From Aurantiochytrium sp. KH105 (taxonomy: Eukaryota; Sar; Bigyra; Thraustochytrida; Thraustochytriidae), in NCBI GenBank assembly GCA_003116975.1, contig BGKB01000012.1:248001-312000 (forward strand): a stretch of DNA of 64,000 nt, given 5' to 3'. The translations under genes and the position numbers were made by a program. The notes under the pieces are model-generated. The model ran no database searches. It had not been told where the DNA came from and saw only the letters and a list, made by a program, of their open reading frames with translations. Shown here piece after piece: positions 2,664 through 64,000 of the stretch. Every line of letters starts with the position of its first letter. The first letter of the stretch is position 1.

Positions 2664-4688
<2,025 letters not shown>

Positions 4689-19496: not shown

Positions 19497-19558
19497 CAGC
19501 CAGCCAGCCAGCCAGCCAACTTGCTTTCTTGCTTGCTTGCTTGCTTGCTTGCTTGCTC
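19497..19558. repeat. (CAGC)n followed by (CTTG)n
   Basis: Two adjoining tetranucleotide tracts, about five CAGC and about eight CTTG units, joined by AACTTGCTTT. Confidence 0.88.
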
Positions 19559-26500: not shown

Positions 26501-27349
26501 GGCGTCTCAAGTTTGGGCTTTGCACGTGCACTTCTTGCAAGTACTAACGCAACCAAGCCTGGGTCACTCACTCTCTCTCACTGCCAACCCAGCAGGCGCT
26601 TGGCTCATGATGACTTGGCTGTGGCGGCCACCTTCGAGCGTGGTCGCGCTGCACGAACGCTATTGCTATTGCGTGTGCAAATATATCCACGCGAGCGCCC
26701 GCCCCGAGGCTGGTTATTTTTACGAACAACGAGAGAATGAGTCGGACGCTGCACGCGAATCTCGGCCCGCTGCTGACTAGTAAGTACAAACGGCGCCGAA
26801 ATGGGTCGTTGTCTGCGCCAGTGCTGAGTCGGTCGCCTTGTGGCATTCGCGGGCAACTACGCGCTGCTGTCACACTCTGACCTTTCTAGGCTAGCCTAGG
26901 CCTAGATCTAGAAGCTTGTGCGTCATTGTTAGTTTTTTATGCGGAATCGTGCAGATTCGCCTCCAACTACTCGTCGATCAAGAATTAGTCTCTCGTCCAG
27001 CTTGCACCTTGATCCTTCCCAAAGGTTGCAAACCAAACCCCGGTATTGTGCGACGAGACGGTGGTTCCCGCTTTCGTGCGACACAGCATGAGCTCGCAAG
27101 TACGACGCAGAGGCGGTCGTATTTTATACACACACGCGCACGCATCATATTTGGTAGTTATGAAACATCATCATTGAAGGTATTGAAAGCTCGTGAAATA
27201 AGGTATAGGCCTATAGCCTAGGCCTACTACTCCGGGAAACCAGCCTTGACCCAAACTCGAGAAAAACCGTGTGATTGCAAAAGGAGGCTCACACAACATG
27301 ATCAGCTGCTTCAAAGTACAATGGAAAAATGAAAGACTGCAGCTCCAAT
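26501..27349. other. Intergenic, upstream of the glucosyltransferase
   Basis: AT-richer spacer without a gene. It contains the 13-base palindrome-like TAGCCTAGGCCTA twice (about 26895 and 27212), within clusters of CTAG/AGGCCT sequence. Confidence 0.5.
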
Positions 27350-32944: not shown

Positions 32945-33345
32945 ATGACCAAGAGCTCGCCGGCGATGCCGAGGACGCCGGCGCAGGCCGCGCGGGCGCA
33001 GCAGGCGCAGGCGCAGGCGCAGGAGCAGGCGCGGCGCGGCGCGGTGAGGACGTGGAGCGCGCCAAGACGCAGGAGCGCGGCCTCGCTGGCGCTCGTGGCC
33101 GTCATGCTCCTTCTCGCGGTGCTCACCAGCGTCACGCTCGGCGACCCGCAGCTCGAGACGAGCGCCCGCAACGACACCGCCGCTGCTGCCGAGGCCGCCG
33201 AGGCCGCGCGGCGCAGCGACGCCGAGGGAGGGGCGAGCGACGCGGCCGGAGCGGGTCCGGCCGCGCCCGCCTCCAGCCTCGGTGGCGAAGCTGCAGACGC
33301 AGCAGCAAACGGGGAAGCAAATAATGACCAAGACGCAGCAGCAAT

Positions 33346-33377
<32 letters not shown>

Positions 33378-36300
33378 GACAAGAAGAAGACCCCCCCACC
33401 ACGGATCGCCGGCAGAACGAGACCGGCCACATTGACAATGTCGTCGAGGGCGAACATGGAAATGACGATGAGGACGACGCAGGCCTTAGCAGCAGGCTTC
33501 GCGTGGGCGAAATGTGCCGCGCCGATGAGGACTGCAGGTCCGAAATATGCTGCGAGCACTTTCGCGTTTGCCTGCCCCGGTCGTGCCGCGATGGCCGTCT
33601 CAATTTTAACGAGACCGGCGTGGACTGCGGCGGAAACACCTGCACCCCGTGCGCCCAGGGGGGCGGCTGTGACACGGACGAAGACTGCCTCTCGCAGCGC
33701 TGCGAGACCACCTTTCGCCATCACTGTCTTCCCGCCTCGTGCACGGACGGCCGCAAGAGCGGCAACGAGACAGACGTGGACTGCGGAGGGCCCATGTGCG
33801 CGCCGTGCTCGGAGGGCTACGATTGCGACACTGACGACGACTGCCAGTCAGGTCTCTGTGACCCAGAGACCGCTCTCTGCGTCGACGCCGCCTGTGGCAA
33901 CGGCATTCGCGATGGCGAAGAGACTGGCGTAGACTGCGGTGGCCTCGACTGCCCTCCTTGCGAACAAGGCCAGGCCTGCCTGTCCAACAGGGACTGTCTC
34001 AGCGGCGCCTGCGACGCCGATGCTGGCATTTGCGTCGACAGGTCGTGCATGAATGGCGTGCTCGACGGCAACGAGACCGACGTGGACTGTGGCGGACCTC
34101 AGTGCATGCCCTGCGGTCTTGGCGCCGTGTGTCGCGGCCCCGGCGATTGCGTGGGCTCCATTTCACGCTTCTCGGAAAACCAGGGAACCTTTGAAGTCGA
34201 GGTCACCTGCCATCCGGACGCGCTTCGTTGCACGTTGGCGTCCTGCCTTGACGGTGTCCTCGACGGCAACGAGACGTCTGTCGATTGCGGCGGCGCCTTT
34301 TGCCCGCCATGTCTTGACGGCAGCGAGTGCGCCGCTGATGCAGACTGCCAAAGCGGACTTTGCTCGCCCGATGTAGGCCTCTGTATGCCAGCCTCCTGCA
34401 GGGACGGCCTTCTCAACGGCAACGAGACCGATGTGGACTGCGGCAACATTTGCGGCCCATGTGCTGCCGGCAAGGACTGCGACGCGGCATCTGACTGCGT
34501 CAGTGGTCTCTGTGACCCGGCATTGGGAACTTGTCTCGATGCATCCTGTGTAGACGGTCGCAAAAACGGTCTTGAGACCGATCAGGACTGCGGCGGCCCT
34601 ACGTGCAGCCGCTGTCCCGCAGGGGCTACCTGCGTCGCAGACGACGATTGCGAGTCGCGCGACTGTTGCGAGCATCGTCGTGTGTGCCTTCCCGAGCACT
34701 GCTCGAACCGCGTCATCGACGGCTTCGAGACGGACGTCGACTGCGGAGGACCTGATTGCTCGCCCTGCCCCGACGCGAGGCAATGCGATGCTGACGCCGA
34801 CTGCGCGTCTGGCGTGTGCGATGACGAAGATGGTCTTTGTCTTCCCGCCACCTGCCGGAACGGCTTACTGGACGGCAACGAGACCGATGTCGATTGCGCG
34901 GGGGGCTGCCACAAATGCTCAGAAGGATCGTTTTGTAGGGCCGATCCCGACTGCCTCTCTGGCGTCTGTGATGACGAGATGGGCGTCTGCGTCCCCTCTT
35001 CGTGTCGCAATGGCGAACAGGACGGCGACGAGACCGATATTGACTGCGCAGGCGACTGTGCGCCGTGCGCCGTGGGGGCCTCGTGCGTCGTTGACGCTGA
35101 CTGCGTCAGTCGCACCTGCGACGCAGACACGGGCGTCTGTCTCGCTGCGCACTGTCGGGATCGCCTTCTCAATGGCAACGAGACCGATATTGACTGCGCG
35201 GGTCCCGACTGTCTCCCCTGCGAGAATGGCCGCCTTTGTATCGCAGATAGCGACTGCACGAGCGGCGTCTGCGACCCGGGCACAGCAAGGTGTCTCAACC
35301 AATTCTGCGCAGACCACATCTTGAACGGCAACGAGACCGCCGTCGATTGCGGCGGTCCAGACTGCCTTCCGTGCGAGGACGGGGCAGAGTGCCTTGTGGA
35401 TCGTGACTGTCGGAGTGGCCGCTGCAATCCGGACTCCAACCTTTGCATGCCGTCTTCATGCTTTGACGGCGAGCTCAATGGCAACGAAACAGACATTGAT
35501 TGCGGAAATGTTTGTGGGCCCTGCGCTGCTGGGCGCGACTGCCAACGCGCCTCTGACTGCGCGAGTGGGCTTTGCGACCCAGAACAGGGCATCTGCCTCG
35601 ATGCATCCTGCGTCGACGGCATTAAAAATGGCCTTGAGACCGCCGTGGATTGCGGCGGACCCGTGTGCGGCCGTTGTGCCGACGGCGAGACTTGTCTCTC
35701 CCACACAGATTGTCACAACCAGCATTGTTGTGAAGTGCATGGCGTTTGCCTCGAGGCTCACTGCTCGAACCGCATCATCGATGGCAACGAAACCGATCTC
35801 AACTGCGGTGGTGACTGCTCGCCGTGCGACGACGGGCTGCTCTGCGAGCGCAACACAGACTGTCTCAGTGAAACATGCCATGATGGCGTGTGTATTCCCG
35901 CCACGTGCCGAAATGGTCGTCGTGATGCCAACGAGACAGATACTGATTGCGGTGGCCCTGCATGCCCGCCTTGCTCGATCGGGGATAAGTGCGAGCATGC
36001 TCGCGACTGTCTTGCGGACGAGGCCTTTTGCGACCTGGCGCACGGCGTTTGCTTTCCGCTGAGCTGCCGCAATGGCCGTCTCGACGGCGCAGAGACTGAC
36101 ATCGACTGCTCTGGCGACTGCCCGCCCTGTGAGGACGGATATCGCTGCGAAGACGGTGCTGATTGCCTCAGTGGCGCCTGCGACCTCGACATGGGCATTT
36201 GTGTGCCCCCAACCTGCACCGATGGTCTTCTCAATGGCAACGAGACAGGCGTAGACTGCGGCGGTATTTGTGCGCCATGTGCGCGAGGCATCGGATGTTT

Positions 36301-39300
36301 CGCAGACGACGACTGTGCCTCTGGCCTTCTTTGCGAGCCGCATCGCCAATTATGCGCGCCCTCCACCTGCTTCGACGGCGTTCTCAATGGGAACGAGACC
36401 GACGTCGACTGCGGCTTTGACTGTGCGCCATGTGACAATGGCCAAGAGTGTATCTCAGCACGCGACTGTAAAGACCTGTGCAGCGAAGACCGCGGCATCT
36501 GCATGCCGTACAGCTGCACGGATGGTCTTCGCAATGGGCTGGAAACGGACACCGACTGTGGAGGCCCCTTTTGCCCCGAGTGCACAAATTTGCACCTTTG
36601 CGCCGAAGATCGTGACTGCCTCAGCGGCTTTTGCGATCCGCGCTTGTCACGATGTATCCCGCGTCAATGCAACGATGGCATTCGCAACGGAAATGAGACT
36701 GGCGTCGACTGTGCTGGGGGTTGTGCTCCCTGCCCACTGGGCGAGCATTGTCTCCAGGACCCTGATTGTGAGTCGGGACTCCGCTGTGACCCGGAACGCC
36801 AGACGTGCGCCCCTGTCGCCTGCTTTGATGGGGTCATGTCCGCAAACGAAACCGATGTAGACTGCGGTGGACCGGATTGCGCCCCGTGCACGGAGCCGCT
36901 TGCGACCTGCGTCGCGGATCGCGATTGCGCGGCCCCTCTCCAGTGCGATGAGCTCTTGCACCAGTGCGTCCCGGCGGATCCCATGGCTCGCAAGCTCCTT
37001 CTCTTGCCCGCGTCCTGCAAGGATGGAATTCAGAACCATGACGAAACAGATGTTGACTGTGGAGGCCCCCTCTGCCTCCCCTGCAACGAGACAGGTCTGT
37101 CGTGCGCTAGGGATGAGGACTGTGCCGGGGACTTGCGCTGCGGCGGAGCTGCGCTTTGCGTCAAGGACACGTGTTTGAACAATGTTCAAGATGGTACCGA
37201 GACTGACGTAGACTGTGGTGGAGCGAGCTGCGCTCCTTGTGCGGACAATCACACATGCCAAAGCGCGAACGACTGTGTGAGCAAGGTGTGCAAGGACAAC
37301 CTTTGCATCCCCGGCTCCTGTTCAGATGGAGTTCTCAACAACGCCGAGGCCGATATTGATTGCGGCGGTCCCAATTGCGAAAAAGCTTGCGCAGAATTCA
37401 GTAGTTGCAACGGGAACAGCGATTGCGCAGGCGATCTCATTTGCGATGAGGACGCCGCACGCTGCGTTCAACCGCAGTGCGCAGGTGGCGCGTGCGGAGG
37501 TGATGCATGCTTGCCATGTGCCGTGGGACGCACTTGCCAGAGTGCCAACGACTGTGCCAGCCATGTCTGTTCGCTTGTCTCGCATCTTTGCCTTCCAAAT
37601 CATTGCGCCAACAACATGCAGGATGCCGATGAGGCTGATATCGACTGCGGCGGCGCCGCCTGTGATGGCTGCGCCCTGGGAGCAGCGTGCAATAACCCTG
37701 CAGACTGCGCGCAAGGCTTGCTCTGTTCGCCGGCGGATTCTACATGCCGGCCGGCCTCCTGCCTGGATGGTATTCAGAACGGCCTCGAGACGTACCCGGA
37801 TTGCGGTGGCCCGCAGTGCCCACCTTGTCAGGAAGTGGGCGAGGCCACTTGTTTGCTCGATCGCGACTGTGCGACGGGGCTCTGCAGCGCCGATGGCGAG
37901 TGTATCGCGCGTACCTGCGCCAATCACGTCAAGGATGCAGAAGAAACAGACGTTGACTGCGGCGGGCCTTTTTGTGCGGCATGCGACAATGGTGCTCAGT
38001 GCACAGACAATGACGATTGTAGTTCCGGGTTTTGCGATCGGGTCCTTGGTGTATGCGCACCCCCGGCTGCTGAAGAGGACTGGATCACCGATTGCAATGG
38101 CCGCAAGCTCACCAATGCAGAGTGTGCCTCCGCGCGACTGGGATACACCTCGTGCGAGCAGCATTTGAACGATGACCTTTGCGACGACGGCACCTTTATC
38201 TCTGATGCCGGAGTTTCGATTGTTCTCAACTGTCCTGCTCATCAATGTGATCGTGGCGCCTGTGGTGCTTGTCGTACGGCGTCTGGTGGCCTCGATCCTG
38301 TCGGCGGCAGTCTGTTGTCCGCTAGATCTTCGTATGTGCTGCCCGGTATCGACACGGCAGCGCTTCCCGATTCAGAGGCGGCTCAGGTCTGGTCCGAAAT
38401 GTATGCGCGCCTGCACAATGGTGCTGCTGAGGTTTTTGCCGGTCCACAGGACCTCATGATCCACCTGCGCGATCTTCGCAAGCTGGCAGAAGTTGACTTT
38501 GCGCAGTACGATGACCAAGCCTTGGGTTTTCACTACGGGGACTTTTTCCGCTATGTCGATTATCTAGGCCTCGCCAAGCCCGAAATGCTGTGCCAGCCTC
38601 AATTTGGATGCCGTCTTTCGACGCATCTCGGTCCAGCGATTGATGCCTTTGCGCACGTCATTATGAGTTTCTATGACTTTTCCGCTATGCCCGAAACGGA
38701 CTTTGTTGTTGACGGAAGCCACGATCCAATGAATCGCGTCCTTTTGGACGGCTTCTTTCTTGGGACTCAAGCTAATCAGGGTGCAGAGGCACGCAAAACC
38801 CTTCGTCTCACAGGCAGCATTCGCGTTGGTCGTCTGAGCGTCGTGGGGCGCGGCGGCGTGCTCGATCTCACCGATGCAACCAGTGTTCATCTCGAGCAAG
38901 GTGTGGTGGTTCTGCCAGGCGGCAAGATTCGCCTCGGTGGCGCGGTGACGCTGACGGGATCCGACCGCGGCTTTATGCTGGTCATGGGGGATCTTGAGGT
39001 TGCCTCGAGCGAGATGCACGACGAAGGCCATCACGAAGAGCAGGATCTCGAACACTCGTCTGCCGTGATGCCTCTCATCGACCTGGCCCGTGTTGACGTG
39101 TTTGGCAGGGCCATCGTCCGTCGAGGCGCTGGTGTACTTTTGTCGCCGCGGACGATGCTTAGCGTCATGCCCGGCGCTTCCATGCACCTTGAGGGCGACC
39201 TCGCCTTTCGATGCACCTCCATGGGCAAGGATTGCCGCATGCGAAACATGGGTCATTTCCAGATCGAAGGGTCTGCCACCATTGACGCCCGCGTCATCAA

Positions 39301-42300
39301 TGATGGTCTTCTCGATGTGAATCGTGGCTCGTTCCGCGCTGCCTTTGGCTTGCAGAATCGCGGTGTCATACGTATCGCACCAGGGGCCATTTGGGAAGTC
39401 CCCGGCGCCGATGCCCTCATCGAGCTTTCGGGAAACCCACTTCGCGAGAACGAATTTGGTCTCAAGTCGCTTCTCGTGCAGACTTCAGGGCCCAGTGAGG
39501 TGCTTGGCAAATCCTCTGTGCTTTTGCATCAGCTTCAGCAGTCGTCAAAATCGATGACCCCGCAGGTTATTGTACGCGGTGTCCTTCGGGTGGAAGCTGG
39601 TGGACAACTTCAAGTTACCGCGGGCGCATCTCTGACGGCTGTCGGCGCATGTGCACTCGAGCTTCTCGAGGGTGCATCGCTCATTGTTCGTGATGCGCAA
39701 GTTGTGCTCGCTCCCGTCTCAGGTGGCCCAGCGAATGGGCTGGATTGTGCGCGGGAGACCCCGCTGCTTGCGGGAGAGCTGGGCGTGCATGGTCGTGGCG
39801 CAGCGGTTCGCGCCTTCTTGGACACCGCCTCGCGAATTCGTGTCGAAGGACGTGTACACCTTTCCGACGGAGGCACAATCGCCGTCGAACACCCGGAGAA
39901 CATGGTGACCTCGCGAAGATCGTTGTCCTCGGCAGCTTCGGGCGGTTCTGCTACCTCTGCCACCACTGTTTTCTCGCAGCCGGTGGTTGCAGATGGCAAT
40001 CTCGTCATTCCGCTTGGACAGTCGGTTGCCTTTGCAAGTTCGCTGGTGCACACTGGCGCCCTTACAGTCCATGGCTCGGTGAGTTTTGAGGGCTACACGT
40101 TGCTCGCCCATCGTGTGAACAACGAGGGTCGCATCGTCGTTGGTTCATCCGGCAACGTTCTCATTGCCGGCATGTACTCGGGCAACGGTTTCCTCAAGGT
40201 GAACGGCCAGCTCTACTTTGGTGGCGCTGGCACTGTCAGTGGAGACCTTGTCAACACCGGCCGCGTGCACGTCGGTGTCGAGTCGCGCGCAGTGATTACC
40301 GAATTTGAGCGTAATCTCTTTTCCTACGATGCGGAGTCGCTTTCAGGTCGCAGACTTATGGCCTGCCCCGATGGCGTACATACGACAAATGTGCGCCTTG
40401 ATATGGGAGCCAGCGCCGGTGTTGGCGTGGAGTGGACCTTGCCTGTGAGCACGTGCGAAGACTACCCTTCGGAGACGGTCTTGCTCGAAGCTCTTGGTCG
40501 GCAGCTTGGTCTCGCGTCTACGTCCGGCCTCTCCGTGCGTGCTGGGTCCGTTGGTAGCTCCTTCGGTGCGCAAACGTTGCGTCGTTCTCTTCAACAGACG
40601 CACGGTGTCTGGGCTCGTCGAGACCAAACGCCGGAAGCGAGTCTCTCCGCTACGGCCGTCCCGGGCGTCGAAGGAGGTTCGCTGGCGCTTGCATTCGCGC
40701 GTGCTCAAGGCGTGGAGATCGATATCTCACGGGCTGCCTCTGTCGACTTCAACGGGCGCATTCTCGACACCGGTGGGCTCTTTGTGGCGGATGATGGTGA
40801 CATGGCCGTTCACGGCGTTGTGTCGATCGACCGCCCAATGCAAAATTTTGGACGCATGTACATTGGTCCGAGTGCACAAGTGGAATTTGTGCGAGCCTTA
40901 GACAGTGCCGGAAATGTCACGATTGACGGTAACGTGACCGTTTCGGATGAAACCACTTACTCGCAGGATGTCTATATTCGCGGCTCGCTCCACGTGACGT
41001 CAACCGGCAATGTCACGTTCGAGGCCATGCTCGAAACCTCGGGATCGCTCTCGGTCGAGGAGGGCGGTGGTGTCGCAATTTTTGGTGCCTCAACGTTTGA
41101 CGAGGATTCCTTTTTCATTTGCGACGGCGAGCTTGAGCTCGGCTACGGCAGCTCGGTGCTCATTTATGGCGACTTTGCAGTAACAGAGACGGGGTCCACG
41201 ATTGTCGATGGTGCACAGATCGACGTTTTCTCCCCTGCCGTCTACTTTGACGGAACGTACTTTCAGACCAAAGGCGCCTTTGTGAGTGTGGAAGATGGAG
41301 GTGTTCTCGTTTTCGAAGGGGACTTCTCTTCCGATGAGAATGCTCAGATATCCGTCGAGTCACGCGGTAAGCTTCGCTTCATGGGCAACTCAATCTTTGC
41401 ACAAGACCTTGTCACGGGCGCTGCCTTTCGCATTGCGACCGAGCAGTATGTAGCTCTCTCCAGCAAGGGAACCGTCATTTTGGGACGAACCGGAACGCTT
41501 GCCATGGAAGGAACGGAACTCCGAAGCACTGGCAGTCTCGAAGCAAAGGAGGGCTCAACAATGACGTGCACCGCATCAGAGTCAAAGCTTTCGCTTCACA
41601 GCGCCGTTGTCGATGGCCTTTTGGCCGTCAACAACTCGTGTGTGGTCATGTTTTCGGGCTACAGCGCTATTGGCGGCTCACTTACGGTCTCGCAGGATGC
41701 TGTCGTGGTGGTCCAGGCGACAAGGTTGACACTTGATCAAGGTGCGCTGTGGACCTCGGAAGGCATTCTGACTATTGATCAAGACGCCGCGCTTGTTGCC
41801 AAGGGTCGGATTCGAAGCCTTGGGCGCACGATCAATCGTGGTCGTCTTCTTGTTGCTTCGGAAGCCACCGCGCCCTCTATTTTTGGTTCGTCCTTGGAGA
41901 GCCAAGGTACAGTGACTTTTGCTGGCGCCGGTATTTTACGAGGTTCTTCACAGTTCTCAGGCGACCTGACTATTGATGTCGGCGGCGCGCTTTACCTCGA
42001 TGGGGCCGTGGTCAGCGTAACCGGGGCCTTTTCGCATGATGGCATTTTGCACACCGGCCCTGACGCGTTGAGCAGCTTCACTTGCTCGTCAACGGAGTGC
42101 ACGTCGACCACAGACAGCCGTCTCGAGGGCGCTGGTAGTGTGACTCTCGCTGAAGGTAGCGAGTGGGAGCTCCTGGGCACGGTGCAGGCACCAGATACCG
42201 CGTCAGGAAATTGGCAGGTACTCAACACTGCAAAGCTGTACGTTGGGGGCCAAGCCTCCATCGGTAGTAGTCTGCGCAATGAGGGCACCCTTTACGTGAC

Positions 42301-45300
42301 CACAGACGCGGATGCCATCTTCACTGGTGCAGTGGTGAGCACGGGCGAAACTCAGGTCGATGGCATGATGCTTTTGTCTGGCGTAAGCGCCGAATTCGAT
42401 GGGCAAATTGGCGGTACCGGAACTCTTGTGGTGGGCTCAGGGTGCAGAGCGGATTTTCTCGGCGATGGCTTGCTTCGGGGCGGACTTCAGGTCCGCGAAG
42501 GTGGAGCCGCCACGATTTGGTCTTCGAGTTTTGACGTGGCCGGAACCAGCGAGAATGCGGGCGATCTCTTGGTCGGCACGGGCGCCGCTTTGCATTTTGT
42601 CTCGGATGGTCTGGGAAAAGCTTTGGCTCAATCCGGGTCTGCGCAGTTTGTAAACTCGGGCTCCTTTCGAAATGATGGAAATGTGACGCTCAGCACGCTC
42701 GCTGTCTTGGGTGGCAGCCTCGAATCGTATGGTGCGTGGGTTGTCTCTTCAACGGGCGAAGCCACCATCATCGGCCTTGCCGAAATCCGTGAAGGCGAAT
42801 GGATTGTGGAAGACGGCGAGGTTGTCATTGACACGGAAGGCGAGCTGACTGTTTTCGGAAACGCCACGTTGGTCTCGAGCGAGTCCAGTTTTGTCCAGGT
42901 GGCAGGGACCCTGACGATTGACGTGCAGGCAACCGCCGACATGCATGGCGCTTGCGCGTCATCTTCAACAGCTGTCATCAACGTACTAGGAGCCTTTGTG
43001 TTGGGAGCCTCCGCGGATCTTCAAGGCTATTTGGAAGTGAACGGCGGCGCTTTGTTGGTAGCGAATCTGGTCGTTTCGTCGGGATCTAGTGAGAAGGGTG
43101 CCGTGGCGCACGATGTGTCTCTTGTTGCCGGCGAAATTTCGGTGCAGTCTGGGGCGCGCTTGCAGATTGAAGGCGGGCTCACGGCTCGTCGCGACATCTT
43201 CGTCATGCCTGGTGCCGAACTCATCTTCACCGCGGACAGTATGTCAAAGCTGCTCTCCTCGGGTGACGATGGCCCTCAGCTTGTGTCTGTGGGTACGCTC
43301 ATCGTGGACCAAGACGCATCTCTTTCGAGCGCAGTGGATATCATCAACACAGGCGAAATTGAGGTCCATGGTACTCTGGAACTCGATGGTGGAACTATTG
43401 AGCTGCGCCAACTGGCGCGTGTCATTCGTGATGTTGTTCCCGAATATCTTATTTCTGACCTTGGCGAGATTTCTGATGATGACATTGGTGGTCTGACTGT
43501 CCTCGAGGGCGGTACACTCACAGGTTGGGCCTTCCTTGAGGGTGACCTCTTGAGTGAAGGAACAGTGCGTCCTGGATCAGATCTCGACCCCGCGGGTGTT
43601 CTTTCAGTTTCCGGTACATTTACCTCGAGAGTGACTGCCGTGCTTGATGTGGTGCTGGCACCGGCAGACAACGCAACCATGCCCCTTTATGGAACTCTTG
43701 ATGTTCAAGGTGAAGTTGACCTGGAAGGTACTGTACGGGTTACTCTTGACCAGTTCTATAGTGACACGATGCGGCTTTCGCCTTTGCTTGCGGCTCGCAG
43801 CGGCCTGGATCTCTCTACGGAGACTCCCTTTGAGGCCAGTGGCCCCGCTGAGTATACCTTTTCTGCGGATGGCTTTGTGGACCAGACTTCGGTTGGCGGA
43901 GATCCTCGCGACGTGCTTCATGTCGACGTGGAGAGCGCCATCTCTCTTGGAGGGCGCCGTGAGCTTTCTGCCGCTTACGCAGAGGATACTCTGTCATCAT
44001 CATCCTCACGTTCTGATCTTGATGCTAGCGAAGAGGACGGCCATGTGGACGCCGCGCGGGCCCGCGCTCGCATGGAGAACGGGACGCATATCCTGGATAT
44101 TTGGCTGGGCGGTGTGCGCAGCATTGAGCCCAGCCGTGCCCGTCGTTTGGTGCACACCATTGAGAGTTATTTGGGCATGACACCCGAGGTAAAGGCGCAA
44201 AAGAAAACGCACATGCCAGGTTTCTTTGACGCCCATGCGATGGAGGTCGTATCACGTCGTTCGGGTCGTTCGTCGCCTTCGGACTACCGCGGTGGCGTTC
44301 AAATTACCCTGGCTTTCCATTGCCCCAGCATTTTCGAGTGTCGATCTTTCTGCGAGACTCTGAATCAGCTTCAGCCGATCATCGATCAGGATCTTTCGGA
44401 GCGTCTGCATGCACTTGGAGTCCATTTGCTATCAACGCGCTCTTCCACATGCGCGTCAGTTCGCGAAAATGTTCACGCAAGCTCCCGGCTGTCCCCTCCC
44501 GTCTGCGTCTCCGACGGAGAAAGAGGTACATTTCTGACCCCCGGAGTCGCATGTCACGAGGCATGCTCTTGTGTTGGCAACCTTTGTTCATGCTTTATGC
44601 GGAATGGCAAATGGGCAGGTTGCACGTGCGGTCCTTTTAGCGCAAACAAGCAAGGTGGGAGCCAGGACCGCGCGGAGCTGGCCATGTCAACCTTGGGCGA
44701 GCTTGCGCACCCCCGTATCGCTTGCGATACGAATGGGCTTGGCGATGTCAAAAGCGGGACGCCTTGCGTTTTTCCGTTCTGGTTCGATGGACAGGAACAT
44801 CATGAGTGCATCGGGTCTGGTTGGGGTGGCGAAGGCTTTTGCGTGGTTCAAGGAAAGATGGCTGGTTGCAAATGCGCTGCCAGTACTCGCGCTGGTTCAT
44901 CAGACGCGAGTGACGTAATGAGCTCTCTGGATCCCTCGGGTCGCGCTTCAGCGCGACAGGTGCCTACATGCGTAACAGATGGCTCCGGCGCTGCGGCCAA
45001 GGGTGACGCCTGCGTGTTTCCCATCATTCACAAGGGTGTCACCCATTTTCGCTGCATTGACCGGGACACCAATGGCGGCTGGTGTTACAACAATCGCGGT
45101 GAGCGTGGTGGCTGCTCATGCTCCCCAGAAAGCAATGTGACTTCGACTTCCGACACCGCTGCGTCAACCTCGCCTTTTGTGAGCGCGCAAGACGAAGCCG
45201 AGATGACAAGCCAAAGTGCTCTGGTTTGGCGCGTGGCGGCAGGCACTCGGTTGGAGGATTCAATCGCAGTGCGTTTTCGGGCATCGCAAAGAACCCAAGT

Positions 45301-54300: not shown

Positions 54301-57300
54301 TGTTCCTCGTGTCTTGGTCTCCCCAGCCGCGGGGATTGATCTCAAGCGCGGCGAGACTGCAAGCTTCGAGGTTAAGACAAATCCTGACGCTGCTCACTTT
54401 GCCACTGACCTGTGGAAAACCTCATGGGTGACCCTGCTGCATGGATCCGACGACACAATGACATTGCCCACCGTGACGGTGCACTTGCCGAGCACGAACG
54501 TGCAGGCGGAGCTCCTTGTCGAATCCGAGGCGCTCCAAGGCTGTGGCGCTGCGCATAGTGCCCAAGTTCGCGTCAAACTTGCAAGTCGGCCGGTCGCCAA
54601 TGTCGAGGTCCGTGTTCGAAGCACGTCTGGTTTGCTGCAAACGGATGACGAAGATTGTGTCGCAGTGCAATCAAGAGTCGCATACCACAGCTCTCAGGAG
54701 AGAGCAATCGTCGGTCTGGAGGATGCTGTTCCGAAGCGTTTGCTGAGCTGGATTGAGGGCACTAACGGTTTTGTCGTGTTCGGGATGGAACGTGAGGTGA
54801 GCAAGCTCACGCGGTGGTTGAGCCCCGGTGTCTTTGAGTTCGAGATTTGCTCTGACCCTCTGTGCCAAACAACTCACCAGAGGGTCTCGGGTATCTCAAG
54901 CAAGCTTGGAGCCGAAGCATACTTTTTCCCTTCAGCCACGCAAGCGTACATGTTTGCCACGTGGGGCTGCAATGGCTCGGACAAGCGGCCTGGTCTCTCC
55001 CTGAGCGAAGATTCGCTGGTGTTTTCTCCTTCAACCTGGGCCACATGGCAAACCCTGCGTGTGGAACTGCTGTGCGGAGAGGGCGCTCCTACTGAGATGG
55101 CAAGCATGGCACCATCGCTTCGCCTCGAAACCTTGACGCATGCGTCTAGCGCGTTTCCAGGAATTGCAAAAGACCTCTTGTATGAGAATATCACCACGGA
55201 AGTCTCTGTTCGCTCACCTTCTGCGCGCACAAAGGCATTGAAACTGTCGCTCGAGCAGCTCACTCTCTCCAAGTCTCTCGAGGGTGATGCACAGTATTCT
55301 TATAGCGTTTCACTCGCCGGGCCACAAGAGGTGCCCGCATCTCTAGGCAAGAATAATGCCTTTGTTCGGGTCCACATCATCCCATCCGTGCATATCTGCA
55401 ATGGTGTGGTGTGCAGCCCGGCGCTGGACGCGGCGTGCTCGTGTGATTCGACGGCGATCGCGGGTCATGGCGAGGTCGAGGTTTCGCCTTCGGTCCTTGA
55501 CTTTTCCACGTCGAATTGGAACGTTGGTCAACGTGTGATGGTCTCTGTGCCAGCGAAGGCAATCGACGCCCATTTAGCCTTTGCTCAAGGCGCAGCGTCT
55601 CTGGTGCATGTAACCGAGAGTTTGGACCCCATATACAATGGTATGCGGGTATCGTTACCTGTAGTGGTCGAGAAAGCAGGCAGTTCAGGAGTTGCCTTTG
55701 ATACAAGCGTGTTGTACCTTTCCGAAGATGGGGCGCCTGCGCACGTGCAGGTGACACTGCAAAGTATGCCTTTGGCTGAACGCGTTCAGGTTCGTCTGCA
55801 TGGCCCGAGTGAGCTGTCCTTTGCACCGGCGGCCTTGGATTTCTTGCAAGCCGAATGGGACACGCCCCAGACCGTGGCTCTCTTGGCCACGCCTTCCGAC
55901 GCGTCTGGTCTGAAACCGTTTGTTGGCATTGTTTATCCGTCGTCACACTGCTCTGGGGACGCGCTGTACAACCAGGAAGGCCGCGCTGGTCCCGGCGTCG
56001 AAGTGGTCGCGATTGATCGAGATTGGGCTGGAGTGTCCCTCAGCGCAGATCGAGTGAGGGTTCGCGATTCCGTGCCGGCTCGTGTTAACGTTAGCCTTAC
56101 GTCTGCCCCTTCCAGCGAGGTTGTCATACGGGTGGTGATCCCTGAGCGGCTCATTCGCATGCGAAAGGAGGATCCGTGCACTGGAGCAGTAAGCCACGAT
56201 AACCGCACTGTGTCGCTCTTGACGGCATCGCCCCTAGAGCTCACGTTTGGCGCAAGCAACTGGTCCATCGCGCAAAGTATTGAGCTCATCGATGCATCGC
56301 CCGAGGTCTCAGAGGACGTGGCTGCTCACGGTCTGCAGGAAGTACGTTTTGAGGTTTCCAGTGCGGACGGCAATTACAATGGGCCGCTCTTGCGGCGCGA
56401 CACGTGTGAGCGGTCTGCATGGAGCGTGCGGCATCCGGACCTAGAAGCAGAAATGTTGCGAGGGCAGATGGTGAGCCTTCCTGGCACTTCATTTACGTGC
56501 TCGCAGTCCGCGGGAAGCGAGATCTGCTGCCCGCTTGTGAGTGCCCCGGTACTCATCGCGGAAGTGGAGTCTCTGATTTGGGGACCTGCGCCGGCACTAA
56601 CAAGTGTGAACATGTCGTCGTCAGGCCGTCACCTTATTGCAATGTTTGATCAGCCTGTATCAGAGGCGAGCCAGAGTACTGTGTGCGCTGATATCTTTGC
56701 AGGCACCTCAGAGGTGTACACCCGGTGTAGATCCCAAGGTGCGGAGCCAACCTTGCCTGTGGAGACAGCATTTGGCGCGGATGCCGTGTGTCGCTGGATG
56801 GATGCGACCGTGGTGTCCGTGGCTCTTGGTGCAGGAGCCCGTGCTATACCTCATCAATGGATTCACCTTGCGCAGCATCGCATTCGTGCTTCATCTCGTA
56901 GCCAACGTTTTTCCACGGGCGCTGTTCCCATTCTTCCAGTCGGCACTGGAAGTTCCTTTGGGATATTTGATTCTCTTTTGGTCCCACCTGCACCAGGACG
57001 CGTCAAGGTGTCAAAGTCGAGCATGCAGAGTGCGGTTTCGCCCGTGAGACTCGAGTCTTTGGAATGGGCAGGTCTCCATCACAATACCTCTCTCGAGTAC
57101 TCTTTTGTGGTGGTTCCCTTTGGACGTAAATACGGGGATGAATGTATGAGTAAGACGCGTCTTCCTTTGTCTCATGGCTTTGGCTCTGACCCCGTGCTCA
57201 ATGCGGTGATTCCCGCTGGGGAGTGGTCTGTCCTTGGCCTGGCACGCGCCACAGCGAATGAAAATGCAAATGCACATGTACAAGGAGAGCATCAGGTGAT

Positions 57301-60300
57301 TGCGGAGGAGTCATGCGTGGCTGCAGGCAAAATCCTTGCTTCTGAAGTTGATCTCGGAAAGCAAAATTTGCGTGACTACATGCGTGACGAAATTGCGGCA
57401 CATGGTGATGATGGTGACCGCGTTGTCCAGATATTGTCGGTCTGGGCCGCAGAGATCTTTCCCCACTTGCGGGCACCCGCTGGCGTGCTGGATCCGCATT
57501 GTTCTTCCAATGCTGATTGCGGGCCTCTTGGTTCGTGCGAAGCAGATTCCAGCTGGACATCCAGACAGCATAACGTTTGCCAATGCCCGCCGTCGCGATA
57601 TGGTCTCCACTGCGAGCACTTTGCTCCAGCCGAGGATGAGACAATCGCACTCCTCACCAGTATGCTGGAAGCTTTGCGCTCCGGAAAACTTATTGGAAGA
57701 CCTGCTTTGGCCCTGCTTTCCCAATTTCCGACGAGTCATGCAGACGCAAAGCTTCGTCTCGAAGTGGCAACCATAGCATTGCAGTCCTTGGGTGGTCTCA
57801 CGCGTTCCGAAGACGCTCTGATCCTCGAGCGTCTTGTTGGATCGACGCTTGATGGCATCAACCGTCGTCTCCTAGAGTCTAAGGTTGGCGTCCCTGATCG
57901 ACTTTCCGCTTGCGGAACCGAGTCAGCGTCACTCTTGCAAACGCAGGCCATGGTGCCCCTTTTGAAACTGCTCCCACGCGACCGAACATACATGTTCGGA
58001 GAGAGTCTCACGGATCAGGACATTGAGGTAATAGCCTCAAATGAGGCTAGTGCTCGACCCTCGAGATCCGTTCTGGCGCATGATCCATTTCTCTGCGAAA
58101 CGGCCTCGCCAATTGTTGTCGTGCTCGGACAAGAGCCTGGCGACCAGGTTCGTGTGCGAGGACTTCCATCGCTGGGCGGAAAGCGTGACGGACTCGTGTG
58201 CATGGGTCGTGGTTCGGATGGCCGGGTTCTGCAGGGGGCCTGTACGGGTTCGTCCGATGACTGTTCATGCACGGTCCCGAACGGGCCTGGAGCCTTTTAC
58301 ATCGGGCTCTTTCATGTTGCGTCTCCGGGTCTAGTTTTTGAGTCAATTTCTGATTACGAAAGCGAGCTCAGTGTACGCGAAGGTGTAACGAGCGAGCTGC
58401 GGATCAGACTGGCATCGGCCCCGCATGGTGATCGCGTCGAAGTGTCGCTTGGCGGCTCGGAAGGAAGTGGTGAGGATGGCTCGCTCCGCTGTGTCAATGC
58501 ACAGGATGGAACTCTCGGTAGGAACTGTGTCCACAGCCTTTCCGATTGCGAAAATCCGCTTGTTGAGTTCTGCGTCTCTGTTACGCCAGCAGGTGATCTT
58601 GTCCGGTTTGAGCCCTCAACCTTTGTATTCTCCAAGGCGAACTGGAATGAGGGACAGACAGTACGAATCACCTCCGAGGATGTGGCCCTTGCGGGCCCTG
58701 CCACGCGCATTATACAAGCAGTGGCAAAAATTACGACAGCAGACGACTTGCGCTTTTTGAATGTACAAGGTTCAGTGCCGATTACAGTCCATGCTCGTCA
58801 TCTTGCGAAGCTAAGTGCGGTTCCGAGCACTCTAGCGTTGCAAGAGTCTGATCTTGGGTCTACAACTGTCGTGGTAAAGGTGGGCGCGAAGCCACGCGCT
58901 AGTCTTCGGATTGAAGCAGTCTTTGACGATCGCAAACTGCAGGTTTCTCCTCGTTCAGTCAGGGTGGACCCAGCGGCTTGGTCCAAGGGCGCAACGTTTA
59001 AGGTGCGTGCCGTCAATGACGATGTGACACAGGCGCTAGTGCAGTATGACGCGGAACTCTCCTTTCAACTTCACCAATCCCAGACCTCGGATGGAGGTCT
59101 TGCAGACCCGGTCTTCTCTGCTCTTCTGGACGAGGACGCAGTCGTGAAAGTTCCGACGACAATTTTGGATGATGAGACGTCGGGCATCCTGGTCAATCAG
59201 TCGTCTCTGACCCTCATCGAAGGCGGACCACCTGGACGTATCAGCGTACGCCTTACTCAAGCACCTGCTGCGGGCGCCGTTTTTGTACGCGCGGAAATTC
59301 GTGATGGCATGTGTCTTTCCGTTGCGGAAGGTCTGGGTGCAGCGCGACAGAGTTGTGCTTCAAGCTCTGATTGTTCGCCAGGATACACTTGCTTTCGCCA
59401 GACAGGTGTGCAAGTTGCACCATCGTCACGGAGCGTTCTTCGTTTCGATGCGAGTAACTTTGCCGAGGACCAGCTTATTTCTCTTACGGCCTTTGAGGAC
59501 GACTTTGTCGAGGGAACGCACGAGGTCAAGATCTTTTTGGAAGTGTCTGGTTCACTGGACGTTTCGTTCTCTCGTGTCGAGTCTGTGCCGCTGCGCGTGA
59601 CGATTCTGGAATCTGCGTCGGGTCGGCCCGAGCCCGGTCTCTGGGCGCTCGCTGACCCTTTTGGGGGCGCTGAGAGGCGATCTCCAGGCGTCCTTGATGT
59701 GGTAGAGGGCGGGCGTCCAGTCCAGTACGGCGTCCGTTTGGCAACCCGACCCCTGGGCGAAGTCGTCGTCGATATTCACGTCGAAAGCGAGAGCGTGGCA
59801 TCGTCCATGCTCCGTTTGAGCGCTCTCTCGAGTGCGGCAGATGACATGACGAGCAGCTCGGCACAGTTGCGCTTCAACCACTTGAATTGGGACATCTCAC
59901 AAGCTGTTCGTGTCGAAGCGCACGATGTAGACGCACACTTCCGGGCTCGTCACGATACTGCAACGGTGTTGCATACCCTCGGCTCCTCTACCGATCCCGC
60001 ATACAATAGAGCGGGCCTGCAGACTGGAGCGAGCGTGGAGGTGAAGGTTGTGAATGACAACGTCCCCGCGCTTCGTGCTGACGTCTCGCACGTTGTTCTG
60101 GATGAAGGCGAGATTGCCGGCTTGCGAATCAAACTTGCGGCCGCACCAGGGGCGTCGGACTCCGTGCGTGTCCGTGTGATGGCATCGCACGGTCGTTGCG
60201 TCTCGATGGAGATTGGATTCACGGCGACAACGTGCACGGAGAACGCCACATGCCAAGGCGAAAATGGCGGCGAGGACTCGTGGTGCTTTGCCAATTCGCA

Positions 60301-63300
60301 CCTGAGCGCGAGCCCGGAGGAACTTCATTTCACGCATAGTAACTGGAATGTTTGGCAAACAGTCCGGGTTGAGGCTTTGCTGGATCACGTTAATGATGGC
60401 GACGCGCTCATGACGAATGTACGATTGGTCAGCTCAAGCTCGAACGCAGCTTTTGATGGCCTTGATCTCGCTGTGGAGGTGAGTGTGGTGGATGTAGACG
60501 TCACTGGACTTAGCTTTGTCACAAGCACACTTGGAATGACAGACGGCAGTGGAGTCAAGCAGGAAGCGCTCTTGAGCGTAACCGAAGGCAGCACTGCGCA
60601 GTACGCCGTGTCTCTGGCCTCGCGGCCTCTGGCGCCCGTGTATGTCACAGTGCTGCAGTGGCCCCTGCGTAATGATGCCGAAGTGGTCGCCGAGCCGAGC
60701 ACGATGCTATTCACAGAAGACGACTGGGATGAGCCGCGCGTCGTCGTGGTGTCGCCCCTCAACGATGGCTTGCACTGGCCTTCAAGCAACGTCGAGGACA
60801 AGGATGGCTTCCTTGCTTTGCGACACGTCGTGGAGACTCAGGCCGCCGACTTCCGCGACCTTCCCTTTGTGGATCTCGGCGTCAATGTGTCAACCGACGA
60901 GGAGCCATTTTTGCGTATCACCTTGGACGATGACTACAACGAGCTGCTTCGCGTCTTTGAACAGGACGGAGACTCTCGCGCCGCGTACTATGAGGTTGTG
61001 CTCATGGCACCCCCGCCGTCGGAAAGCATGCCTACAATTGTACACGTCGATGCAGCCTCTGGCTTCTGCACGCAGAGCGTTGCTGGCATCGAGGTTTCAC
61101 ACGTGGTCGTGCGCGATAGCTTTTGCTCCAAGGATGCAGACTGCGAACGGGGCCAGACGTGCTTTACGGGAACAAAGGTTTCTGTGTCGCCAACGGCGCT
61201 CGAGTTTACAGCAGAGACGTGGAGCGTCCCGCAGCGGGTGGCCGTGGTCGCGCTTGACGACGATATTGCAGAAGAGCCCATCCATTTGGGACGCATCCGA
61301 CACCACGCGACACGTCAAGATCTCGACCTCGGGTTCGCAGAAACTCTCTTGGTGGAGATTGTGGACGATGACATGGCGAGTATTGCGCTTGATCGCGACC
61401 ACATTCATATCGTGGAAGGCGAGGAAGCTGATGTGTCCTTCCAGGTGCGTTTGACCTCTGAGCCGTTGTCTCCCGTGGTGATCGATTTGCTGGTGGAGCC
61501 GGAAAGCCACGGCGGGCTTTTGGAACTTTCAACGAGCAGTGTGGAGATCGCGCCTTCAGACTGGGCTAAGTGGCATACTGTGCATGTCCGCGCGCCCGCG
61601 GACGACGTCGCTTCAGGCCGTCCGCTCTTACTGCAACTGGCACATCGCGCGGTCTCACTGGACCCCGATTATCGCGCCCTGGAACAAACCTTGATTGTTG
61701 AGCGAATTGATGCGCACAATCCTGAAATTCAAGTCATGCTTGGAAGCTCAGACGACCTCGAGGTCTCAGAGGACGGCGCTGCCGTGCAATTTTCTGTGGC
61801 TCTCGGCTCGAGACCTCTTGAGCCTGTGCGTCTGCTCATTGATGTTTCTCGCGGGTTCTGCCGCAAGGAAAGCAGTGGCAGCAGGTTGCACGGGGCAAGT
61901 TCCTCCGCGTCGCTTCCGGACTTTGGGCGCCCTTGTGGGGCTCGTGGCGTAAATATTTTGCTTCATCCAGCCACACGCAGTGGTCCTCGGGAATGTGAAT
62001 GCATGCTCGGTATGGGACTTTCCGCAGATCGACGATGGCTTTCATTCACTCCCAACGACTGGGATCTGGCTCAAGTTGTGACTGTTGTTGCCGACGATGA
62101 CAGCTTTGCTGAACCAGCAACGCACCCTGGCTGGATTCGTGTGGCGCTCGACAGAGACGGAACTGCCGACGCTGTGTACCGGTCGCGCTATAGCGGAGAC
62201 CATGGCGGTTCGGACGGAATTGTGACCTGGCTTTCTCTGAGCATTGTCGACAACGATGCCGCGGGGATACGTGCAAACACCCAGGCCATCGTTGATGAGC
62301 AAATGCAGGAGGTCTATAATTTGGCGCTGATGAGTCGACCGTTCGGAGATGTACATGTTTCGATTGGTGCGAGTGCAGACTTGGGAATTTCGCCCACGTC
62401 GGTCGTCGTCTCGCCCGCGGCGTGGAACTCTCCGCAGTCTGTTCACGCGTCGGTGCTTGGAATGGTGGATGGTACTGGAAAGACCTCGCAGAACACGCTG
62501 AGAGAAACCACTGTTGAGATCAAGCACACCATCACAGCATCATCGGACCCAGCTTACAAGCAAATGCCATCATTGGTAGAGACTGGACTGCTAGTATCGG
62601 GGCGAGCGCCACGACTGCGCATTACTTCACTGGACCAGAAGTCCGACGAGGAAGATACATTTCTTCCTTTGGTCGTCGAAGAGGGTTCGCATGGTGCTTC
62701 ATTGAACGTAGCACTGAACGCAGAACCCACGGGAGATGTATATGTGTACATGAGCGTCCCCGCTGGTGTTTGCGAGGGTGTCTCAGGCCCTCGTTTTGAC
62801 CAAGGCTGCTCTCATGATCATGATTGTGCTGCAGGGCGTGTGTGCCGCAAGGAGACGGGGCTGGCTGTCTCGCCGACCCAGCTTCATTTTACAAGGCTGA
62901 GCTGGAGTACCCCGCAGGTCGTCACGGTCAGCAAGGCCGGTAACACGGTCGATGAGCGATTGAGTCCCATGCAGGATCATTGGCATGTGGTTCCACTTTC
63001 CTGCGGTGTTAAGAGCTCATCCGACGACCAATACGCTGCTGTCACGACTCGCGAGGTGCCGATCCAAGTCATCGATGATGATATGGCTGGCATCGCGTTC
63101 CGTGTGGGGGCAAACGGAGACTCTGTGCGCCTGGATGGTTCTCAGCGACTGGACGCAGTCGAGGGTACGGACATGGATCTCAGTGTCGTGTTGACTTCGC
63201 AACCGCGTAGTAAGGTGTCTGTGAGCGTGTCTGTTCTCATGCCGGAGGCCGTCGGTGACAGCGCTGGCGCAGCGGAGGGACAAGGACTGTTGGGCTTGGT

Positions 63301-64000
63301 CGATGCACGAGAACTACGCTTTGATGAGTTTTCTTGGAATGTCTCTCAAAGATTGCACGTGAAGATTCCAGAGAATGAGCTCGTTGACCAAAAGACGCGC
63401 ATCGGAATTTTGCGCTTCGAAAGCGAGGCCCTGGACGCCTTGTACGCCTTTGAATCGCAGGAAGTGGTTCTCGACATACTTGACAACGAGTGTCGCGTAG
63501 GCTCTTGGAGTGCGTGGTCCGTCTGTGATCAGGCGTGCGGGCCCGGCTTCGAGCGAAGACATCGGGATGCATACTTTCCCAATGGCGGTGCAGGCGGTTG
63601 CCCATATGAGATGGTGAGTTTGCGACCTTGCAATCTGGGTTCATGCGCCTCGCTTCAGTCAAGCAGCGAGCTGGACTCGATGCTGGAGATTGGCTTTCGG
63701 TTTGCAGTCAGCGATGGAGCGCCGGAAGCATCTGCGCACGGACGTGTCTTTGCGGACGCAGCCAGAGCACGCGCTAGAAAAGTGGACGAGTATGTTGCCA
63801 AGTCTCTCGGTCTCGACCCCAGCATGGTAGAGCTTGACAGCCTTTCGGAAGTGGCTTCTTCTGTCGAGGACGGCAGCGAGGTCGCGACTGGCTCAACGGT
63901 GAGCTTTGCCGTGAGCCTTGTAGTCAATGTTAACGCGAGCGTGGGCGTGCTTGCCGTGGAAACCCGCGCGCGCAGGCAGTTATCCGACCCCGGAAGCCAG
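32945..64000 (+). CDS. Giant multidomain cell-surface/secreted protein (5' part; runs off window)
   Basis: One frame with no stop from the first ATG (AAAATGACC, A at -3) to the window edge: 10,352 codons, about 31 kb, no intron needed. Residues 44-65 are hydrophobic after a basic, Gln/Ala-rich tail, so a signal peptide with a long n-region or a type II signal anchor. An Ala-rich and acidic linker follows, then about 30 Cys-rich repeats (191-1704), an unassigned globular stretch (about 1715-1935), a beta-helix-like region (about 1940-3610), two fibronectin type II-like modules (3927-4059), about 36 Calx-beta-like repeats (about 4215-10180) interrupted by a REJ-like and an EGF-like module, and a thrombospondin type 1 module (10183-10234). 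All modules are extracellular types, so adhesion, matrix or ectoplasmic-net attachment is the likely role. A C-terminal membrane span, expected in adhesins, would lie beyond the window. Exact function is unknown. Confidence 0.93.
33515..38056 (+). repeat. Array of about 30 Cys-rich ETDVDCGG repeats
   Basis: Coding repeats of about 48-52 residues with the pattern C-x4-DC-xSG-x-C, then SC-x-DG-x2-NGNETDVDCGG, then C-x-PC. By eye I count 29 full units and a final half unit. Similar repeats are known from surface proteins of myxobacteria and some protists. The Cys spacing suggests small disulfide-knotted modules in a stiff rod. Unit 5 carries an insert of about 20 residues and unit 26 is shortened. 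Units 1, 8 and 15 share a CCEH-like variant, showing a seven-unit higher-order period. Confidence 0.9.
38090..38780 (+). other. Unassigned globular segment of the giant protein
   Basis: About 225 residues between the Cys-rich array and the beta-helix region. Includes LPGIDTAALPDSEAAQVW and a segment around MLCQPQFGCRLSTHLGPAID. Mixed helix/strand composition with few repeats; it may be an N-terminal cap for the beta-helix. No family recognised. Confidence 0.5.
38780..43770 (+). other. Beta-helix-like region of the giant protein
   Basis: About 1,660 residues rich in Gly, Val, Ser and Asp, with short repeating rungs such as GSLTVSQDAVVVV, GTLTIDVQATADM and GTLYVTTDADAIF. Each pairs a G-x-L/V-x-V strand with a turn. 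This is typical of right-handed beta-solenoids, which extend adhesins away from the cell. Cys are very sparse here, unlike the flanking modules. Its end (about 43372-43582) is the part copied in the relic at 29768-30003. Confidence 0.7.
44723..45120 (+). other. Two fibronectin type II-like modules in the giant protein
   Basis: Residues about 3927-3979 and 4009-4060. The first has C, then GTPCVFPFWFDGQEHHECI, then GFC and CKC. The second has C, then GDACVFPIIHKGVTHFRC, then NGGWCYNNRGERGGCSC. The C-x-FPF-x-F/Y-x-G-x4-C core and closing WCY-C are type II hallmarks, a collagen/gelatin-binding fold in animals. A FN3-like stretch with NTAYDIYVCPEHPE follows (about 4065-4195) before the Calx-beta-like block. 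Confidence 0.7.
45590..63490 (+). repeat. Block of about 36 Calx-beta-like repeats
   Basis: Units of about 100-170 residues. The pattern is EG-x-YxVxLxSxP-x-VxV near the start, then LxFxxxNWxxPQxVxVxAxDD in the middle, then S-D-P-Y and a closing VxDxDxAG. I count about 36 W-centred motifs between 45750 and 63330. The strand order and closing DDD/DND acidic motif resemble Calx-beta sandwiches, which bind calcium. At least 16 units carry a Cys-containing insert after the second strand. The stretch at about 53.7-55.0 kb is more diverged. Confidence 0.8.
56538..58010 (+). other. REJ-like, EGF-like and helical island within the Calx-beta-like block
   Basis: Residues about 7866-8000 resemble the REJ module of polycystin-1-type proteins: SSSGRHLIAMFDQPV, C-x-D-IF, then VCRW, VVSVALGAGA and a basic IRASS before AVPILP. 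An EGF-like module with six Cys (C at 57500 to C at 57611, CQCPPSRYGLHC) follows. Then about 130 residues of helical, Leu-rich sequence ending near DRLSACGTE. Calx-beta-like repeats resume at about 58340. REJ assignment is inference from motif order; EGF is clearer. Confidence 0.55.
63491..63646 (+). other. Thrombospondin type 1 module in the giant protein
   Basis: Residues 10183-10234: C-x3-SWSAWSVCDQACGPGFERR, then CPYEMVSLRPCNLGSC. The W-x2-W, the CxxxCG and the closing RPCNLGSC are typical. WSAW is a potential C-mannosylation site. The sequence after it, to the window edge, has alternating hydrophobic residues (FRFAVSDG; VSFAVSLVVNVNASVGV) and is unassigned. Confidence 0.9.

Follow-up and report, generated by a model that had tools for sequence, protein, structure and literature searches.

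A 1.17-MDa predicted surface protein of Aurantiochytrium sp. KH105 with a Calx-beta-like stalk and a Tudor-like/PDZ tail

This study concerns a 64,000-nucleotide stretch of the genome of the thraustochytrid Aurantiochytrium sp. KH105 (C12:248001-312000 within an assembly of 76 Mb and 367 contigs; hereafter the window) and the giant gene that runs out of its right end. A stop-free run leads from position 32675 to the window end (10,442 codons), and its first ATG, at 32945, opens a coding frame whose codons 1-10352 cover 32945..64000 on the forward strand (+). All features of the gene given below lie on this strand; coordinates refer to the window unless a contig is named, and residues (aa) are counted from this ATG. 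An earlier note, made from the letters of the window alone, had reported at least 10,352 codons, which is identical to our count from the ATG, and had proposed to look further to the right for the stop codon and any terminal membrane segment. Both are present. In the DNA of the same contig, the frame stays open for another 644 codons up to window position 65932 and is closed by TGA at 65933-65935 (C12:313933-313935), and the sequence past the window encodes a hydrophobic helix, which is described below with the tail. From stop to stop, the gene measures 11,086 codons; from the first ATG, it encodes 10,996 aa with a computed mass of 1,166 kDa (1.17 MDa).

Given the base composition of the span, the chance of so long an open run is about log10 P ~ -170, and across this span the five other frames reach 215-391 codons at most. 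We also searched the genome with a 1-kb probe from the gene, which found one further place, on contig C22, with 97% identity. The copy there (C22:314747-347947) is open over 11,067 codons and also encodes 10,996 aa from its ATG; the only N in the fetched DNA lies upstream of this ATG. The two proteins are 97.4% identical (10,701/10,990 aligned residues), with dN 0.012, dS 0.079 and thus dN/dS 0.153. Substitutions at codon positions 1/2/3 number 190/104/612, the three indels between the copies all consist of whole codons (6, 4 and 2 codons), and dN/dS ranges from 0.04 to 0.35 across 22 blocks of ~500 codons (final 2-codon block omitted). A chance frame is ruled out by the open-run statistic together with the dN/dS between the two copies. 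Moreover, constraint in all blocks and whole-codon indels argue strongly against a false join and against long hidden introns. That is, judged from the substitution pattern, the frame is coding along its whole length and the gene is apparently intact, single and without introns, which agrees with the view of the earlier note that this is one real gene. Some 80-codon windows with few changes show a low share of third-position changes, so a short intron with a length that is a multiple of three may lie within the frame.

Beyond the gene, the two contigs align upstream with 91.5% (10 kb) and downstream with 92.2-94.3% identity (14 kb), and a frame of 1,629 codons adjoins the giant gene on both of them. 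Near-identical pairs on two contigs were also seen for several further genes of this genome. Given the syntenic flanks, the common neighbour and the pairing of other genes, we read the C12 and C22 copies as two haplotypes. With regard to genome size, thraustochytrid strain CCAP_4062/3 reportedly has 38.7 Mb. For Schizochytrium aggregatum, 38.96 Mb are given (PMC10101102), i.e., about half of the 76-Mb assembly used here.

The earlier note had read the protein as a succession of extracellular modules, i.e., a Cys-rich rod, a beta-helix, fibronectin type II (FN2) domains, a Calx-beta array with a REJ/EGF island and a thrombospondin type 1 (TSP1) repeat. Our analysis confirms these module types for the rod, the beta-helix (as a beta-solenoid, by structure model and Foldseek), FN2 and TSP1 (both above their Pfam cut-offs) and, as Calx-beta-like repeats, for the array. 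The N terminus holds a hydrophobic segment directly after RRR (aa 45-63, 33077..33133), in which the 19-residue Kyte-Doolittle mean has its maximum over the protein (2.54) and which is predicted to act as signal peptide or as signal anchor. It is followed by the Cys-rich rod (aa ~190-1722, 33512..38110) with ~29 eight-Cys repeats of ~51 aa, which remain unmatched in Pfam scans. Among 28 anchored units, the 25 of regular length were aligned and share seven invariant Cys, one Glu and one Asp, and an N-glycosylation sequon occurs at a constant position in 15/28 anchored units.

Relatives of the rod repeat are found both within and outside this genome. Elsewhere in the genome, it occurs in seven apparent frame pairs (C7/C10, C277/C85, C75/C133, C71/C25, C152/C40, C101/C92, C19/C3) and two single frames (C43, C221) of 594-4,067 codons, which possibly form a repertoire of surface proteins. 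Within a prokaryote collection, the repeat pattern has 427 matches, of which 378 encode a relative. The best 80 of these 378 show 45-74% identity; judged by their titles, 41 come from Myxococcota lineages (the placement of some being our assumption), 9 from further delta-proteobacteria, 9 from Bacteroidota and 4 from Nanoarchaeota. For viral contigs, a relative is encoded in 6/53 pattern matches. The likeness to these bacterial and archaeal eight-Cys 'GNETDVDC' repeat proteins holds at module level only.

The region aa ~1960-3600 (38822..43744, limits set by reading) has neither a Pfam match nor a sequence match in the Protein Data Bank (PDB) at E<=0.1. We modelled 601 of its residues (aa ~2600-3200) with AlphaFold2, using the two copies (98% identical) as alignment. 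The result is all beta and forms a regular ladder with a mean pLDDT of 72.7 for the best of five models (others 54.0-70.1). Foldseek places antigen 43 passengers on top (E 1.6e-4, probability 0.99), with TM-scores of just 0.21-0.26 for the top six matches. Thus, a beta-solenoid fold is supported for this region, while the model does not settle its exact shape. The subsequent FN2 domains (aa ~3872-4060, 44558..45124) are seen as two Pfam stretches (PF00040, 37.4 and 39.8 bits, cut-off 22.2) and a third by eye.

The major part of the protein is an array of Calx-beta-like repeats. A self-built repeat profile (hidden Markov model, HMM) finds 37 copies within aa 4207-10201, i.e., 25 repeats in block 1 (aa 4207-7822, 45563..56410) and 12 in block 2 (aa 8466-10186, 58340..63502), where a Cys insert is alternately present and absent. 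Adding a probable extra repeat at aa 6949-7047, besides which there is a half-repeat at aa 6370-6449, we estimate a stalk of about 38 repeats. A hallmark W is present in 36/37 repeats (F in the remaining one) within the strand pattern F-x3-N-W-x2-P-Q. The structure model of a single repeat, for which 34 other repeats served as alignment (i.e., 35/37 were used and two atypical ones omitted), is all beta with a pLDDT of 84.5. Acidic residues are conserved in the columns E18 (18/23, counting repeats with a residue in this column), D102 (27/37), E106 (18/37), D124 (33/36), D141 (23/34) and D143 (17/32), which amounts to one N-terminal E, the motif D-D-x3-E and, close to the end, D-x-D. These columns coincide with what we take to be the Ca2+ ligand positions of Calx-beta domains; the ligand pattern thus appears conserved and provides putative Ca2+ sites. 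In the profile search, six NCX1 sequences match in a single register (E 0.029-0.18). A 440-aa query of three stalk repeats has 19 matches in its own genome at E<=1e-4 (58 candidates scored), all of them in the C12/C22 gene, and no match in plasmids.

In 15/37 repeats, the loop before the W strand carries a Cys insert (>=3 Cys), whose spacing resembles half a rod repeat in nine cases. No two of the 37 repeats with an insert are adjacent (chance ~5e-5 for this narrow label, which, as the wider one, was chosen after the data had been seen, and the alternation was noticed before being tested), and the last twelve repeats alternate perfectly between Cys+ and Cys-. The half-repeat at aa 6370-6449, which the profile misses, bears Cys beside a Cys-bearing repeat and would break the alternation once. 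For a wider label (>=3 Cys anywhere in the aligned repeat, 17/37), some labelled repeats are adjacent, and the nearest neighbour has the matching label for 23/37 repeats. Core identities are 0.230 within Cys+, 0.246 within Cys- and 0.231 between both groups (reached by 13/2000 label shuffles). This makes a weak case for an origin from a duplicated two-repeat unit, and given the weak identity signal we leave the origin of the alternation unclaimed.

The two blocks are separated by a non-repeat island (aa 7823-8465, 56411..58339), for which the proposed REJ/EGF identity is rejected as unsupported. Even at E<=10, the island matches 0 Pfam families, i.e., neither an EGF model nor REJ, and the four matches of the REJ model (PF02010) in the genome all lie in genes other than the C12/C22 gene. 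A genome search at E<=1 returns the island itself and its allele only. REJ domains above the Pfam cut-off are encoded at C140:155388-156437/C30 and C15:310346-311521/C6, within frames of ~2,900 and 2,475 codons.

Following the stalk, a TSP1 repeat (aa 10183-10234, 63491..63646) is recognized by TSP_1 both on a long piece (22.8 bits) and as isolated domain (28.2 bits, cut-off 21.6), and by TSP1_spondin with 38.4 bits (long piece, below the cut-off of 41) and 43.6 bits (isolated, above). The last part of the window (63647..64000) holds the start of the juxtamembrane region. Beyond it, hydropathy indicates a transmembrane helix at aa ~10470-10494 (C12:312352-312426), which is the sole C-terminal one with a hydropathy above 2 (next C-terminal stretch 1.86) and which leads via a basic stretch into a ~500-aa tail. 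The domains of this tail, all beyond the window, are a Tudor-like unit (aa ~10618-10676), a pair of weaker units of SH3/Agenet type that reaches to aa ~10828, and a PDZ domain (PDZ_6, aa ~10902-10987). On the 644-aa C-terminal piece, Tudor_3 scores 34.6 bits (cut-off 25.8) and 53-BP1_Tudor 25.5 bits (cut-off 22); PDZ_6 scores 28.6 bits there and 32.3 bits on the isolated domain (cut-off 27). Among PDB chains, the tail matches a PDZ with E 2.2e-7 and 53BP1 with 9e-4.

We also compared the tail with the remaining genome. Its PDZ region is matched by two further pairs, C2/C194 and C83/C85, and its Tudor-like part, more weakly, by a number of other frames. The pair C2:17104-23343 (-) and C194:123352-129519 (+), apparent alleles of 2,080 and 2,056 codons, encodes a membrane protein with a von Willebrand factor A (vWA) domain (31.2 bits, cut-off 27) and one strong membrane helix. 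Like the giant protein, it combines a single helix with an Agenet/SH3/Tudor-like tail (Agenet 34.7 bits over the full protein and 42.0 for the tail, cut-off 27) and a PDZ-like C terminus. The latter is identical to the giant PDZ in 33/93 positions (E 1e-12 pairwise, 1.5e-9 genome-wide) and matches PDZ chains of the PDB (best 7.7e-5), and the SH3/Tudor-like parts match with a pairwise E of 2e-6. In contrast, its ectodomain is of vWA type and has no match to the Cys rod or stalk query.

These data directly support the constrained frame in both copies, the order of domains, the hydrophobic C-terminal helix and the Tudor-like/PDZ tail. We consider it likely that the product is a single-pass type I membrane protein, i.e., a giant adhesion or cell-coat receptor with a Tudor-like/PDZ tail. 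Under the type I topology that we infer, the ~38 Calx-beta-like domains would build a long extracellular stalk, to which Ca2+ bound at the conserved acidic sites and disulfides in the 15/37 repeats with a Cys insert would lend stiffness. If ~4.5 nm is taken for each Ig-like repeat, the stalk length can be estimated at ~170 nm. The stalk would hold the beta-solenoid and the disulfide-rich, probably N-glycosylated rod away from the membrane, where this distal part could bind neighbouring cells, the substrate or the cell coat. On the cytoplasmic side, the Tudor-like domains and the C-terminal PDZ may attach to a scaffold beneath the membrane or to a methylated partner, which would couple adhesion to the cell interior.

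Several results weigh against parts of this picture. The N-terminal hydrophobic segment could serve as a second anchor, its cleavage being only putative. For the stalk, 0/35 scanned repeats (of 37) match the Pfam Calx-beta model (PF03160) at E<=0.05, and Pfam matches are limited to sub-threshold fn3_6 (TLP1_add_C and Squash matches, in one repeat each, were set aside as having little weight). Two designed Ig-like proteins outrank NCX1 in the profile search, and Foldseek puts bacterial pilus chaperones first (TM ~0.4), with CBD12 of CALX (3rb7) at rank 49 (E 3.4e-3, TM 0.34). For the Calx-beta array proposed earlier, the acidic pattern and the profile register speak in favour, and the lack of recognition by Pfam and the fold ranking against; we use the term Calx-beta-like. 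Within the tail, the isolated unit 1 barely passes 53-BP1_Tudor (22.5 vs 22) and fails Tudor_3 (21.6 vs 25.8), unit 2 stays under all cut-offs with a weak SH3 match, and isolated unit 3 has no Tudor or SH3 match (Agenet is weakly seen on the 644-aa piece). The PDZ model PF00595 reaches only 17.6 and 21.8 bits (cut-off 23.2), and no PDZ model of Pfam matches the C terminus of C194, even with the limit set at E<=1. Furthermore, most known Tudor domains belong to nuclear and ribonucleoprotein (RNP) proteins.

More tentatively, the giant protein may belong, as its largest member, to a hitherto undescribed class of adhesion receptors of protists that combine one helix, Tudor/SH3-like barrels and a C-terminal PDZ with interchangeable ectodomains, and whose tail would read a methylated or otherwise modified cytoplasmic partner and act as its own scaffold. 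The giant Calx-beta-like stalk and the vWA protein of C2/C194 could then, with the same reservation, exemplify such ectodomains. We know of no such Tudor/PDZ self-scaffold wiring in animal adhesion receptors.

Among the alternatives to a receptor, a building block of the cell coat or matrix survives best, although we deem it rather unlikely. Here, the ectodomain would end up in wall, scales or net, by shedding or cross-linking, with helix and tail only guiding secretion. An ectodomain of repeat rods and a solenoid is indeed as found in structural surface proteins, and the presence of the rod repeat in seven apparent other pairs and two single frames fits a repertoire of coat proteins. On the other hand, the tail is under constraint (dN/dS 0.10, block starting at aligned codon 10501) and has a relative in the otherwise unrelated C2/C194 protein; both points suggest a role beyond guiding secretion. 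A receptor for mating, aggregation or recognition, with a specific partner cell bound by rod and solenoid and a stalk that just spans the coat, is improbable: the solenoid has its best fold matches in antigen 43 chains, of which one is titled a self-associating protein, and dN/dS peaks at 0.35 (block starting at aligned codon 8001), but the N-terminal candidates for binding do not evolve fast (0.04-0.17 in the first six blocks). Finally, an artefact, i.e., unrelated modules joined in the assembly or several genes sharing one frame by chance, might be suspected from the unusual module order and the drop in GC content from 0.61-0.66 (32-38 kb) to 0.56-0.58 further on, but is very improbable and largely refuted by the DNA evidence, since the same full-length frame lies on two separate contigs with syntenic flanks of 91-94% identity and every dN/dS block is under purifying selection.

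Returning to the adhesion or cell-coat receptor, one of the closest comparisons is ADGRV1/VLGR1 (GPR98), the ankle-link receptor of vertebrate hair cells, for which 35 Calx-beta domains and a link to a PDZ system are described (PMC10604119, PMC12361621). Both are giant surface proteins with a Calx-beta(-like) stalk (35 vs ~38 repeats), C-terminal anchoring and a PDZ link. The thraustochytrid protein differs in its single C-terminal helix, its rod, solenoid, FN2 and TSP1 modules, and in having PDZ and Tudor-like domains of its own. Hydropathy gives this one C-terminal helix and not the seven membrane helices of an adhesion GPCR, and general Pfam scans found no GAIN/GPS family (aa 8521-9320 being scanned as single repeats only). 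We read it as working like ADGRV1 but, on both of these grounds, standing outside the ADGRV1 family.

The beta-solenoid resembles the passengers of antigen 43 and other autotransporters by its model (E 1.6e-4), but with TM-scores of 0.21-0.26 and no PDB sequence match at E<=0.1, and it is one module of a eukaryotic membrane protein here. With CBD1 of NCX/CALX, the stalk repeats share the acidic pattern of the Ca2+ site, a common profile register and, putatively, the Ig-like sandwich; they differ by the near-invariant W (36/37, NWxxPQ-type motif), the Cys insert (15/37) and the missing recognition by Pfam. The tandem Tudor of 53BP1 aligns with tail unit 1. Its cage residues, which we take to be W, Y, F, D and Y, read Y, Y, F, D and D there, i.e., Y, F and D are kept, W is replaced by Y, and one cage Tyr is Asp. 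Given this only partly kept aromatic cage, binding of methyl-lysine/arginine by the Tudor-like tail is possible but not assured; moreover, the domain is part of the tail of a membrane protein and not of a chromatin reader. Within the open-access library searched, we found neither a described protein with this module order nor a Tudor/PDZ tail under an adhesive ectodomain.

Proteins of more than 5,000 residues are common, with more than 41,000 entries given for UniProtKB (PMC11573180), so size alone is not what sets this gene apart. Rather, a frame of ~11,000 codons that purifying selection keeps open in two haplotypes makes a concrete candidate for protist attachment, with the cell coat, cell-substrate attachment and the ectoplasmic net as candidate sites of action in a thraustochytrid. 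For the net, a proteomics report from 2025 offers candidate proteins only (PMC12221091). If true, a Tudor-like/PDZ tail on two otherwise unrelated surface proteins would be an unfamiliar wiring of adhesion to the cell interior.

Another giant frame without stops was observed at C274:167382-187349 (-), with 6,656 codons, no N and no helix of strong hydrophobicity (best value 1.5). It matches the Tudor-like query, shows C2- and EF-hand-like parts by eye, and apparently encodes a giant cytoplasmic protein. An open frame of 8,945 codons on C70 was dropped, as it contains most of the 9,809 N in that stretch.

Concerning the neighbourhood, the 1,629-codon frame past the right end of the window (L003:2142-7028, -) encodes TmcB-type TPR and PAS domains. 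Within the window, an 831-codon frame at 17148-19640 (-) ends in a channel of the aquaporin family (MIP, E 2.7e-43), and 23609-26506 (-) matches a family 28 glycosyltransferase (E 1.8e-8). Elsewhere in the genome, pieces of a PfaA-type polyunsaturated fatty acid (PUFA) synthase lie on different contigs with 930 and 456 bits, i.e., below the model cut-off of 1,010; the PfaA model also matches 11/14 control genomes, 0 of them over the cut-off. Other ketosynthase matches in the genome reach at most 162 bits. Among eukaryotes, a synthase of the PfaA type is typical of thraustochytrids, so the pieces suggest a host from this group. Two long open frames, C27:303609-314666 (5,708 codons) and C56:295285-306354 (5,831 codons), contain several matches to the ketosynthase region and apparently encode a multi-modular polyketide synthase.

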